Assembly: GCA_022799035.1 (NCBI GenBank) | Contig: JAAWNQ010000004.1 | Location: 1 to 64,000 of the forward strand | Direction: 5' to 3' | Origin: Oscillospiraceae bacterium | GTDB lineage: Bacteria; Bacillota; Clostridia; Oscillospirales; Oscillospiraceae | Length of the DNA stretch: 64,000 nucleotides | In this document: positions 48,785 through 59,180 of the stretch, piece by piece | Layout: each line of letters begins with the position of its first letter | Numbering within the stretch: position 1 is the first letter of the stretch | The notes under the pieces: generated by a model | Told to the model about the DNA's origin: nothing | The model's database searches: none | What the model saw: only the letters and a program-made list of their open reading frames with translations | Translations under genes and position numbers: made by a program

Positions 48785-48808
48785 GGGCACGGCAATTCTG
48801 CCGTGCCC
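48785..48808. repeat. REP-like palindrome
   Basis: GGGCACGGCA-ATTC-TGCCGTGCCC with CGCAGGG head. Confidence 0.75.
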
Positions 48809-48815
48809 CACAAGG

Positions 48816-53756: not shown

Positions 53757-53792
53757 GGGGATTACCTCGATTCTGTTGGGGTGGTGGGGCGA

Positions 53793-53911
53793 GCGGGTCT
53801 GGGACCCGCCCCTACGAAAAAAGCGGGACATTACGGGCAGGGGCGGGCGAAGGATATCCGCCCGCCGCAAAAGGCTGTGGGGCGTGTAGGGGCGGGTTCC
53901 AAACCCGCCCG
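53793..53911. repeat. BIME-like cluster of three REP-like palindromes
   Basis: GCGGGTCTGGGACCCGCCCCTAC (53793-53815), GGGGCGGGCGAAGGATATCCGCCCGCC (53840-53866), GTAGGGGCGGGTTCCAAACCCGCCCG (53886-53911). Confidence 0.8.
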
Positions 53912-53921
53912 TTTTCCCGGG

Positions 53922-54821
53922 TTACAACAGGGCCTCCACAAAGGCCTCCGGGTCGAAGGGCATCAGGTCGTCGATGCCCTCCCCCACGCCGATAAATTTC
54001 ACGGGCACGCCCAGCTCCCGGGCGATGGCCACCACGATGCCCCCCTTAGCGGTGCCGTCCAGCTTGGTGAGGACCACCCCGGTGAGGCCGGCGGACTCCA
54101 TAAACTGCTTGGCCTGGATGAGGCCGTTCTGGCCGGTGGTGGCGTCCAGCACCAGGAGGGTCTCCCGGCTGGCGTTTGGCAATTCCCGATCGATGACCCG
54201 GCTTATTTTGTTCAGCTCGTTCATCAGGTTCTGCTTGTTGTGGAGCCGCCCGGCGGTGTCCACCAGGATCACGTCCGCCTTCCGGGCCTTGGCGGCGGTG
54301 CAGGCGTCAAAGACCACGGCGGCGGGGTCGGCCCCCTCGTGCTGGCGGATGATCTCCACCCCGGAGCGCTCGCTCCAGATCTCCAGCTGGTCGGCGGCGG
54401 CGGCCCGGAAGGTGTCCCCGGCGGCCATGAGGACACGGAGGCCCTCCCCCTTCATCCGGGCGGAGAGCTTGCCGATGGTGGTGGTCTTGCCCACCCCGTT
54501 GACCCCGATGAAAAGGCAGACGGCGGGGCGGCTTTCCAGATTCATCCCGGTGCCGCCGATGTTGAGAAGGCCGGTGAGGATGTCCTTCAGGGTCTCCCGG
54601 GCCTCGGCGGCGGATTTGCACTTGCCCAGCTTGGCCCGGCGTTTTACCTCTCCGCTGATTTCCAGGGCGGTGTCCACCCCCACGTCGGAGAGGATGAGGG
54701 TCTCCTCCAGCAGGTCATAAAAGTCGTCGTCCAGCTCTCCGGCAAAGAGCTGGTCGAAGGAGTGGCCGATGTTTTCCTTGGTGCGGGTCAGGCCCTGGCG
54801 TATCTTTTCAAAAAAGCCCAT
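53922..54821 (-). CDS. ftsY: Signal recognition particle receptor FtsY
   Basis: GVNGVGKTTTIGKLSARMK, DTFRAAAADQLEIW, VDTAGRLHNK, TKLDGTAKGG. Confidence 0.96.
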   Translation of the reverse strand: MGFFEKIRQGLTRTKENIGHSFDQLFAGELDDDFYDLLEETLILSDVGVDTALEISGEVKRRAKLGKCKSAAEARETLKDILTGLLNIGGTGMNLESRPAVCLFIGVNGVGKTTTIGKLSARMKGEGLRVLMAAGDTFRAAAADQLEIWSERSGVEIIRQHEGADPAAVVFDACTAAKARKADVILVDTAGRLHNKQNLMNELNKISRVIDRELPNASRETLLVLDATTGQNGLIQAKQFMESAGLTGVVLTKLDGTAKGGIVVAIARELGVPVKFIGVGEGIDDLMPFDPEAFVEALL

Positions 54822-54835
54822 GACTGTCCTCCCGA

Positions 54836-55084
54836 TTATTTCTCGTTGTAGTCGATCTTCTCGCCGCAGCGGCAGCAGTATTCCCCTCTTCCCTGGCCCA
54901 ACCACTCGCCGCAGCTGGGGCAGCGCCGCCACAGGAAATTCAACAGGATGGCGACCACCACGCCCCCTACGGCCAGGTATTCTGTCCCGGCGTTTTGGAC
55001 CGCCACGTTGAGTATGGCCAGGATGACTGTCAGGCCCATCAGACCATAGATGATCCACTCCTTTTGCCGCAGGCTCAGCTTCAT
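54836..55084 (-). CDS. Small two-TM membrane protein with zinc-ribbon
   Basis: TM segments then CPSCGEWLGQGRGEYCCRCGEKIDYNEK. Confidence 0.75.
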   Translation of the reverse strand: MKLSLRQKEWIIYGLMGLTVILAILNVAVQNAGTEYLAVGGVVVAILLNFLWRRCPSCGEWLGQGRGEYCCRCGEKIDYNEK

Positions 55085-55302
55085 GGGGGTCATCCCCTTC
55101 CGGTATAGTATTCGTCCTCCGCCCAGCGGGCGGGGTTGGTTTCGATGTAGTTCCATTTGGTCAGGTAGTCCGTTTCGTCCCGGATGATGTGGTCGTAGAA
55201 GGAGGGTTGCCAGAGTTTTTGACCCGCAGTTCCCCTCAAAGTGTTCCACCGCCGAGTGGTCATGGATTTCAATACCCGCATGATATCCATGATGGTGCCC
55301 TC

Positions 55303-55328
55303 CGTAGGGCGGGGGCTTGCCCCCGCCG
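55303..55328. repeat. REP-like palindrome inside RAYT CDS, copy 1
   Basis: CGTAGGGCGGGGGCTTGCCCCCGCCG. Confidence 0.92.
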
Positions 55329-55457
55329 AAAGCCGAAGGAGAAGGTGGATGTGGTTGGGCATAATGACCGCCTGGTCGATGGACATGGTGGGGAAACGGG
55401 TTTTTAGATTTTCCAGTTCCTCCGATACAAGTTGACCCGCAGGCAGGAGGAGCACCG

Positions 55458-55483
55458 CGGCGGGGGCAAGCCCCCGCCCTACG
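55458..55483. repeat. REP-like palindrome inside RAYT CDS, copy 2 (opposite orientation, identical)
   Basis: Reverse complement is CGTAGGGCGGGGGCTTGCCCCCGCCG, 26/26 to copy 1. Confidence 0.92.
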
Positions 55484-55598
55484 ATCCTGCTTAGGACTTT
55501 TCTCTTTTTATTGGTACAGGCGGTAATGAAATAGACACCGTCCTGTCCGTAGTCATACCCCTTTAGACGGGGGTGTTTTCGTTGGTTCATTTGCTCCG

Positions 55599-58500
55599 TC
55601 ACTTGATATTCAGTTCCTTCTCCACGTCGTTGAGGTTGATGGCGAGAACTCTCGTCACGCCCTGCTCCTGCATGGTCACGCCGTAGAGGGCGTCGGCCTC
55701 CTCCATGGTGCCCCGGCGGTGGGTGATGACGATGAACTGGGTGTTCTCCGACATCTGGCGCATGTAGCGGGCGAAGCGGGCGATGTTGGGGTCGTCCAGG
55801 GCGGCCTCGATCTCGTCCATGACCACGAAGGGGGTGGGACGGACCTTCAGGATGGCGAAGTAGAGGGCGATGGCCACGAAGGCCTTCTCACCGCCGGAGA
55901 GGAGGGTGATGATCTTCAGGCTCTTGCCCGGGGGCTGGACCTTGATCTCGATGCCGCAGTTGAGGATGTCCTCCGGGTCCTCCAGCTCCAGAGTGGCCTT
56001 ACCGCCCCCGAAGAGCTCGGTGAAGGTACCCTGGAAGGCTTCGTTGATCTTGGTGAACTGCTCGGCAAAGATCCGTTCCATCTCTCCGGTGACGTCGGCG
56101 ATGACCTTCAGCAGTTCCGCTTTGGAGCCCCGCACGTCGTCCCGCTGGCTGGTGAAGTAGGTGTACCGCTCATTGACCCGCTGGAACTCCTCGATGGCAT
56201 CCAGGTTGATATTGCCCAGGGCGGAGATGGAGCGCTTCAGCTCCCCCACCCTCCGCTGGGCCTTGGGAACGCTCTCCAGCTCCACCCGCTGGGCCCGGGC
56301 GGCCTCGTGGGTGAGCTCATAGGTCTCCCACAGTCGGTCCAGGATCTGCTTCTCCTCCATCTCGGCGGAGACCTTCTTCTGCTCCAGGACGGAGACCTCC
56401 CGCTCCATGGCGAGAAGTTCATTGTTCTTATCCCGGCTCTGCTTGTCTGCCTTGGTCCGCTCCCCCTCCAGATCCAGCCGCTCCTGGTTGAGCCGCTGGA
56501 TATCCGCCTGTTTATTGGCCGTCTCGGTCTGGATGGCCTGGAGCTGCTGTTGGCGGGTCTGGATCTGGCTTTCCAGATCCAGATTCTGCACTTTCAGTTC
56601 GTCGATACGGCGGGTCCGGTCCTCCCGGTCTCCCACCATATCCCGGCGCAGGTCCTCCAGCTCCCGAAGGGACTGACGGGCCGCCAGGGTCTCGGCCTCC
56701 AACGCCGCCTTCTGGGCGTTAAGGAGAGCGATCTCCCCATTGATAGCCTCGCTGCGCTCCCGGGCCTCGTTCTGGCCCTGGATCTTGCTGTCCGCCTCCG
56801 CCCGGAGGGCAGCGGCGGAGCCCTCCAGCTCCTCGATCCGCCGGCGGGCGTTGGCGGTGTCCTCCTCGGTGCGCTGGGCACGCTGGGAGAGCTGGTCCAG
56901 CTCCCGCCGCCACTCCTCCTGCTGGCGCTGAACGTCGGCGGCGGCCTGGTCCAGGTGACCCACCCGCTCCTCCAGCTTCAGGATATCGTCCTCATGCTGG
57001 CGCTGCTGGGCCTGGGCCGCGTCCATCTCATACTGGGCGCCGGTGACCTCCCGCTTGGCCTCCTCCAAAACTTTGGCGGCGGCGGAGAGCTTCTCATTCA
57101 GGTCCCCCTCCTGCTCCCGGAGCCGTTCCAGCTCCCCCTGGCGGGAGAGGATCCCCGCGGTGCGGGAGGCGGAGCCGCCGGTCATGGAGCCGCCCGGGTT
57201 CAGCACCTGACCATCCAGGGTGACGATCTTCAGCTTGTGCTTATACTTCCGGGCCATGGCGATGGCGGTATCCATATCCTCCGCGATAACGGTGCGGCCC
57301 AGAAGGTAGGCAAAGACCTTCTGGTACTTTTTCTCGCACTCAATGAGCTCGTCTCCCAGGCCCACGAAGCCGGGCTCGTCCACCACCCCGGTCTCCTTGA
57401 ACTCCTGGGGCTCAATAGCGTTCAGAGGCAGGAAGGTACACCGGCCCCCGTCCCGGCGCTTGAGATACTGGATGGCGTTCTTACCGTCCTCCTCCCGGTC
57501 CACCACAATGTTCTGCATGGCGGAGCCCAGGGCGGTCTCAATGGCTACGGTGTACTCCCCCGAGACCCGGAGAAGACCCGCCACAGGACCCAGGATCCCC
57601 TTCATCTGGCCCCGCTCGGCCTCCCCCATCACCATCTTCACCGCCTTGGAGTAGCCCTCGTAGAGCTTCTCCATCTCGGAGAGCATATGGATCCTGGACT
57701 GGAGGGCGCTGACCTCCATCTGGAGCTTCACGTGCTTCTCGTCAGCCTCCTGGAGCTTCTTTGTCCGGCTGGACAAACGCAGGGCGTACCCGCTGATGAT
57801 ATTCTGGATGGAATCCCGGTCCTCCCGGGCCTGCTCCAGGTCCTTTCGCGCCGCCTTGGCTTCGGCTTTGGCGGCCTCCAGCCGCTCCTCCCCCTGGGAC
57901 AACTCCTGACGGACCGTCTCATCCCGGTCCAGCACCTCCTGGGCGGCGGCGGCCAGAGCGGAGAGCAGGGCCTTGGCCTCGGCGGCGGAGGCGGTCTCCA
58001 CCGCCTCCTTCTGGCGCAGGGCCTCCATCTCGGCGGCAAGGCTGCCCGCGTTCCGGCCTACCTCGTCCGCCTCGGCCTGCTTGGCGGCGATCTGTCCCTC
58101 CAGGGCGGCGGTCTCCGCCCGGATCTCATCCAGACGGCCCTGCCGCTGGGTGATCTGGCCCTCGATGGAGCCGGCCCGTCCCTCCTGGGTCTCCAGCTCC
58201 CGCTTGAGCCGGTCTGTGTTCTCCAGGTTGTTCTGAATATTGGCCTTCAAGACCTCAATAGCCTTCTCACACTCGTTGGCGTCGGCCTGACGGCCCATCA
58301 TCTCGAAGCGGATGCCCTCGGCGTCCATCTCCTTTTGGCGCATCTGCTGGGCGATGGCCTCGGCGGCGGCGTAGAGACGCTCCACCTCCGCCTGGACCTC
58401 CCCCTTCTGGCGGACGGCGCTTTCATAGTCGGATTGGATCTTGATGCTTCCGGTGCGGATCCGGTCTAACTGCTCCATCCACAGGGAGATCTCCAGTCCC

Positions 58501-59180
58501 CGCAGCTCGTCCCGGAGGATAAGGAACTTTTTGGCTTTCTCCGCCGAGATCCGCAGGGGCTCCACCTGGAGCTCCAGCTCGTCGATCTTATCGTTAATCC
58601 TCGTCAGGTTCTCCTCGGTCCGCTCCAGCTTCCGCTCGGCCTCCTCCTTCCGGTGGCGGTAGCGGGAGATGCCCGCCGCCTCCTCAAAGACCTCCCGGCG
58701 GTCGGCGGACTTGATGGATAATATCTCGTCGATCTTCCCCTGGCCGATGATGGAGTAGCCCTCCCGGCCCAGGCCGGTATCCATGAACAGCTCGTTTACG
58801 TCCTTGAGCCGGACAGAACGGCGGTTGATGTAGTATTCGCTCTCCCCCGAACGGTAGTACCGCCGGGTGACCATGACCTCGCTCTCCTCCATATGGGGGA
58901 ACAGGTGCTCGGTGTTGTCCAGCACAAGGGAGACCTCGGCAAAGCCAAGCTGCTTGCGCTTGGCCGTACCGCCGAAGATCACGTCCTCCATCTTGCCCCC
59001 CCGCAGAGCCCGGGTGGACTGCTCCCCCATGACCCAGCGGATGGCGTCGGAGATATTCGACTTTCCCGAGCCGTTGGGGCCTACGATGGCGGTGATGTCC
59101 TCGTCAAAGGACAGCACCGTTTTATCGGGAAAGGATTTAAACCCTTGAATTTCCAATGCTTTCAGGTACAAATGGCACAC
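55599..59180 (-). CDS. smc: Chromosome segregation SMC ATPase
   Basis: YLKALEIQGFKSFPDKTVLSF, GPNGSGKSNISDAIRWVMGEQS, long coiled coils, LLSGGEKAFVAIAL, DEIEAALDDPN. Confidence 0.97.
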   Translation of the reverse strand: MCHLYLKALEIQGFKSFPDKTVLSFDEDITAIVGPNGSGKSNISDAIRWVMGEQSTRALRGGKMEDVIFGGTAKRKQLGFAEVSLVLDNTEHLFPHMEESEVMVTRRYYRSGESEYYINRRSVRLKDVNELFMDTGLGREGYSIIGQGKIDEILSIKSADRREVFEEAAGISRYRHRKEEAERKLERTEENLTRINDKIDELELQVEPLRISAEKAKKFLILRDELRGLEISLWMEQLDRIRTGSIKIQSDYESAVRQKGEVQAEVERLYAAAEAIAQQMRQKEMDAEGIRFEMMGRQADANECEKAIEVLKANIQNNLENTDRLKRELETQEGRAGSIEGQITQRQGRLDEIRAETAALEGQIAAKQAEADEVGRNAGSLAAEMEALRQKEAVETASAAEAKALLSALAAAAQEVLDRDETVRQELSQGEERLEAAKAEAKAARKDLEQAREDRDSIQNIISGYALRLSSRTKKLQEADEKHVKLQMEVSALQSRIHMLSEMEKLYEGYSKAVKMVMGEAERGQMKGILGPVAGLLRVSGEYTVAIETALGSAMQNIVVDREEDGKNAIQYLKRRDGGRCTFLPLNAIEPQEFKETGVVDEPGFVGLGDELIECEKKYQKVFAYLLGRTVIAEDMDTAIAMARKYKHKLKIVTLDGQVLNPGGSMTGGSASRTAGILSRQGELERLREQEGDLNEKLSAAAKVLEEAKREVTGAQYEMDAAQAQQRQHEDDILKLEERVGHLDQAAADVQRQQEEWRRELDQLSQRAQRTEEDTANARRRIEELEGSAAALRAEADSKIQGQNEARERSEAINGEIALLNAQKAALEAETLAARQSLRELEDLRRDMVGDREDRTRRIDELKVQNLDLESQIQTRQQQLQAIQTETANKQADIQRLNQERLDLEGERTKADKQSRDKNNELLAMEREVSVLEQKKVSAEMEEKQILDRLWETYELTHEAARAQRVELESVPKAQRRVGELKRSISALGNINLDAIEEFQRVNERYTYFTSQRDDVRGSKAELLKVIADVTGEMERIFAEQFTKINEAFQGTFTELFGGGKATLELEDPEDILNCGIEIKVQPPGKSLKIITLLSGGEKAFVAIALYFAILKVRPTPFVVMDEIEAALDDPNIARFARYMRQMSENTQFIVITHRRGTMEEADALYGVTMQEQGVTRVLAINLNDVEKELNIK

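Follow-up and report, generated by a model that had tools for sequence, protein, structure and literature searches.

A RAYT transposase gene in the 64,000-nucleotide stretch of Oscillospiraceae DNA analysed here (hereafter the window) carries two identical REP palindromes within its own coding sequence, inverted with respect to each other and lying one on each side of the codons for the HUH motif. Paired internal REPs are a family trait of such genes and not a one-off. The results establish the pair, its fixed positions in most homologues, its invariable inversion, the in-step turnover of its two arms and its match to the dispersed REPs of the same genome; the arrangement resembles a REPIN that encloses the catalytic core. 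We consider it probable that the gene is a RAYT kept by vertical descent in a single copy, with inverted cognate REPs that straddle the HUH codons, and that recognition by the enzyme and matching of the arms make it a cis-linked master copy.

The RAYT gene of the window

The open reading frame (55090-55602, minus strand) encodes 170 amino acids with NHIH, WQ and YIETNP motifs. It matches Pfam Y1_Tnp (PF01797) at 8.9e-6, and an AlphaFold model built from 29 homologues (pLDDT 84) matches the IS608 and ISDra2 transposases as well as E. coli TnpA_REP 4er8 (TMq 0.61), to which a profile match was also obtained (1.8e-11). A Y1 transposase fold with an HUH and a single Tyr motif places the protein among the RAYTs (TnpA_REP), the identity that an initial annotation of this DNA had proposed. 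The sequence CGTAGGGCGGGGGCTTGCCCCCGCCG lies at 55303-55328 on the plus strand and at 55458-55483 on the minus strand, inverted and identical at 26 of 26 positions, as that annotation had reported. REP copy 1 (site 1; 55458-55483) reads on the coding strand as a GTAG head followed by a hairpin and encodes IVGRGLAPAAV, and the inverted REP copy 2 (site 2; 55303-55328) encodes SAGASPRPTEG; both are in frame, and the HUH codons (NHIH; 55345-55356, minus strand) are indeed within the 129-bp spacer that separates them. These two REPs were the sole matches to the 26-mer in the window at three mismatches or fewer, and dinucleotide shuffles gave none.

In the model, the site 1 REP codes for the tip of a beta-hairpin that links beta1 to alphaA (residues ∼41-49) and the site 2 REP for a loop between the HUH strand and alphaC (residues ∼92-103), and neither insertion is present in E. 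coli TnpA_REP. Alignment to homologues likewise showed the REP-encoded peptides to be insertions, since palindrome-free homologues lack those residues and have a short turn at site 1, for example VDGEMRLN. A GTAG-anchored 24-mer occurred 25 times in the 2.27-Mb genome at two mismatches or fewer, with 20 exact copies, and a control read backwards occurred 0 times. The repeat is a REP of the GTAG class, being present in many copies and having a 7-20 nt hairpin with GT[AG]G at its foot, and the cognate family of the RAYT is dispersed in its own genome; a GTAG head at the hairpin foot is the standard layout of a RAYT substrate (PMC6006769, PMC3733652). The initial annotation had named two findings that would speak against it, the same residues in palindrome-free homologues and a lack of further copies of the 26-mer family; with the residues missing and about 25 copies present, neither occurred. 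One copy of the 26-mer family in this genome lies in frame within a truB-like open reading frame (SPSVGRGLAPAAPDS; L007, G000:C18:7295-7318).

Paired REPs in homologues and dispersed REPs in genomes

Homologues were drawn from relatives, named GTDB genomes and further stretches. With a GT[AG]G head and a stem of at least 7 as the criterion, 96 of 136 distinct RAYT genes had a REP at each of the two sites, a count that treats genes and genomes as independent despite shared ancestry and that comes from homologues picked by similarity to a pair-bearing gene. All 96 pairs were inverted: 93 had their heads outward (forward at site 1, reversed at site 2), 3 had their heads inward and none was direct. 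A REP at one site only was present in 22 genes and at neither site in 18, the rate per site in a codon-shuffle control was 0.005-0.007, and the stretch between the sites held a GT[AG]G-headed palindrome in none of the 136 genes. The criterion is conservative, as L038 and L148 count as one-sided although their alignment shows clear pairs. In a set of 107 genes, an inverted site-to-site match score of at least 17 was reached in 68 genes and a direct one in none; in the controls this score was reached by 2.8% of pairs whose arms were swapped between genes and by 0 of 2140 with a codon-shuffled site 1. Among the named genes, both sites were filled in 44 of 57 from Clostridia versus 1 of 18 from other phyla, and 7 of the latter 18 had an insertion at site 2 only. 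RAYTs from Chloroflexi, Desulfuromonas, Latescibacterota and Prevotella (L103, L121, L088 and L140) have a REP-like palindrome at site 2 only, and in L161, L162 and L183 site 2 holds in-frame tandem arrays of 3-4 REP-derived units.

The REP sequences at the two sites form about 32 clusters, and the two arms of a gene change together. The arms were identical at 24 of 24 positions in 48 of the 96 paired genes, and 67 distinct units were found; when related units were compared, 964 base differences at one site had their mirror image at the other, 514 were confined to a single site and 142 had changed differently at the two sites. The window gene and L035, the homologue closest to it, were 68% identical at third codon positions of the core and 100% identical in both REPs. 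On a quick-method tree of the 136 genes, pair state changed 32 times and REP cluster 45 times; these counts were set aside. In genome G092 both internal arms read CTCG and the exact dispersed copies CTTG, and master and copies can therefore diverge; L064 combines an arm of the one kind with an arm of the other. Judged from these bases, copying from arm to arm would fit better than overwriting by dispersed copies.

Within 20-kb flanks of the named loci there were 17.7 versus 9.4 copies per Mb, too few to test cognacy, and therefore whole-genome pattern counts were used instead. Seven REP families were counted by pattern in 32 genomes. A family found inside a RAYT had a median of 15 further copies in that genome, compared with 0 elsewhere (Mann-Whitney 2e-17), and at least 5 dispersed copies were present in 19 of the 22 cells with an internal pair versus 13 of the 202 without (Fisher 2.6e-16), both statistics treating the genomes as independent, which they are not. 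In permutation among RAYT-bearing genomes, 0 of 20000 permutations reached the observed value. The family GGGATGCCCTCATCCC was confined, among the 32 genomes, to the two whose RAYT carries GGGATGCCCTCATCCC. The match extends to variants: in G075, GCTCCC occurs in the internal pair as well as in about 45 of 48 copies and is absent among the copies listed for G000, G092 and G053, and in the window's genome a second RAYT (L034) and 17 of 17 listed copies of its family have a GTGG head, whereas other genomes mostly have GTAG. Many copies, for example 97 of P4 type in G092 and 25 of P5 type in the window's genome, occur with no detectable RAYT that carries their family, and the internal pair is therefore dispensable for the persistence of dispersed copies.

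Homotypic dispersed doublets match the orientation of the internal pair, being outward in G075 and inward in G003, G007 and G014. A general link between the two orientations was considered and rejected, as it fails on mixed pairs in G092 and G050. In G092, two REP families form mixed inward pairs with fixed spacings of 113 or 73 bp in more than 10 places.

RNA control, tolerated insertion, peptide and mobility

Control at the level of RNA would make the identity of the REPs incidental: in the mRNA, either a long stem formed by the two arms across the HUH codons or a pair of local hairpins would throttle translation or stability of the transposase. The RAYT mRNA segment does fold arm to arm (-96.7 kcal/mol, z -5.2, with 0 of 200 shuffles as stable), and such pairing requires the inverted orientation that is seen. 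However, pairing of this kind would work without a palindrome or a GT[AG]G head in the individual arms, whereas 96 genes retain both, and it leaves the match to dispersed copies unexplained; we regard this reading as unlikely.

About equally improbable is that REPs simply survive where loops tolerate them, the pair being two old, fixed and functionless landing sites at positions shared by descent. REP insertions are known in unrelated genes (PMC3733652), the truB-like copy in the window's genome is a further instance, and other phyla have insertions at site 2 only. Nevertheless, a functionless relic would decay and its arms would drift apart, and this is at odds with 0 direct pairs in 96, arms that change together and about 32 clusters at unchanged positions. 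Of the earlier suggestion that the gene is a landing site for REPs, the insertions themselves thus stand, but a simple landing site is too weak an account of both sites being filled in 96 of 136 genes. The self-targeting or autoregulatory arrangement that the initial annotation also raised is a possible further reading.

A role for the encoded residues in the enzyme, with the repeat in the DNA as its consequence, appears very unlikely. The same combination of reading frames was found in 56 of 68 tested pairs, as such a role would favour. Two frames are nonetheless in use at site 1 and two at site 2, both orientations occur (in L044, L045 and L144 the orientation is flipped as a pair), and conservation extends to third codon positions in the REPs but not elsewhere. 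The peptides are diverse (VGRGLAP, VGADIIRP, RAGLEPAP and GAQCAP) because the REP sequences form so many clusters. Since reading frame and orientation vary, it is the DNA and not the peptide that is conserved.

We give equally little credence to the REP pair as the boundary of a self-mobile unit, an idea raised in the initial annotation for which we found no support, for although the catalytic core is flanked by inverted repeats and one relative has a RAYT remnant from which the inter-REP stretch, including the HUH codons, has been lost and a single REP left (L163; G101:C11:41102-41440), the inter-REP segment is too little for a whole enzyme, the gene is single-copy and it keeps its place. The smc gene lies immediately upstream on the same strand (55599-59180, minus strand) and ftsY downstream (53922-54836, minus strand), and the smc-rayt-ftsY order is common to the window's genome and L035, L036, L064, L065, L038 and L148; with this synteny in seven genomes the gene is therefore not a jumping unit. 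Other RAYTs of the window's genome are at most about 50% identical to it, and plasmids and phages contain almost no close homologues. Nor is it an IS200/IS605 insertion sequence, which would be mobile, present in several copies and equipped with subterminal hairpins beyond the gene.

L038 and L148 have different REP pairs at the same place between smc and ftsY, and L038 is similar to the window gene over its N-terminal (0.63) and C-terminal (0.82) parts, compared with 0.18 in alphaC. Therefore, the pair can be exchanged, by conversion or gene replacement, while the position of the gene stays. That the inter-REP core is swapped as a cassette was not adopted: there is one clear case (L038) and a weak overall trend, and we keep it as a lead.

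Enzyme and candidate substrate in one gene

We thus return to the RAYT gene as a cis-linked master copy, the reading that we favour. From the known biochemistry of RAYTs, the encoded enzyme would be expected to recognise the internal hairpins on single-stranded DNA. Copying between the arms, either RAYT-driven or by snap-back, together with selection for substrate recognition, could then hold the two arms in agreement with one another and with the current specificity of the enzyme, and the protein would tolerate the REPs because both sites encode surface loops. The gene would in this way be the source of the dispersed REPs. A stronger form, which we put forward only tentatively, is that the gene is the genome's master REPIN, that arm-to-arm copying keeps its arms identical and that changes in enzyme specificity and in substrate are inherited together and seed a new dispersed family. 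These results suggest that the gene for the enzyme and the DNA of its substrate are carried along and evolve as a single unit.

The gene bears on two open questions, namely how RAYTs and REPs remain matched although both evolve rapidly, and how a transposase that does not mobilise its own gene is retained by bacteria. A gene with its own substrate pair in frame is a natural linkage of enzyme and substrate; about 100 homologues with about 32 REP clusters provide a ready matrix of cognate and non-cognate combinations for binding tests, and the internal pair serves to assign dispersed REP families to their enzymes.

In-frame REPs, mostly after the HUH motif, are already known. According to Quentin et al. 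(2018; PMC6006769), tnpA_REP genes of subclass 2.4 (Bertels group 4) contain REPs inserted in frame, as a rule between HuH and Y, and the subclass is described as abundant in Cyanobacteria and Bacteroidetes. The site 2 insertions found here fit that description, including those in non-clostridial phyla that have site 2 alone. Against the traits given there (NH[IFV]H, WQ and a variable beta3-alphaC insertion), the window gene has NHIH and WQ, its YIETNP is one position off the printed YIxNNP, and at site 2, between the HuH strand and alphaC, it has the variable insertion of REP origin. It differs from the subclass as described there in having a second, inverted copy before the HUH motif (site 1) that is matched to the other and changes with it, and in the dominance of the paired form in Clostridia. 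A two-site, inverted, co-evolving pair, a match of cognate variants and clostridial prevalence were not found in the texts compared, although overlap with Figure S10 of PMC6006769 is possible.

Other known arrangements share single features with this one. In-frame palindromes encoding short peptides are found as Rickettsia RPE and intragenic REPs (Di Nocera 2013; PMC3733652), but the hosts there are unrelated genes, many of them for DNA repair, whereas the host here is the candidate enzyme for the repeat itself. The internal pair has two inverted REPs in common with the REPIN (Bertels and Rainey 2011; PMC3116915), but it spans about 130-150 bp of coding sequence (a 129-bp spacer in the window gene), and the whole unit is not dispersed. 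The REPtron (Nunvar 2010; PMC2817692) likewise combines one RAYT with two inverted cognate REPs that co-evolve with the enzyme and have dispersed copies in the genome, but those REPs flank the open reading frame; here the coding sequence itself holds them, and no copy of the family flanks the gene in the window. The nearest other REPs belong to another family and form an inverted doublet between ftsY and the next gene, at 53791-53815 (minus strand; GGGTTCCAAACCC) and 53886-53911 (plus strand; GGGTCCCAGACCC); this family has 25 copies in the genome, in which no RAYT with the family inside was found. A further GTGG-headed hairpin (GTGGGGCACGGCAGAATTGCCGTGCCC) lies at 48785-48811 on the minus strand of the window. 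A classical REPtron was seen in L167 (G111:C47), a RAYT without internal REPs that has inverted REP doublets on both sides.
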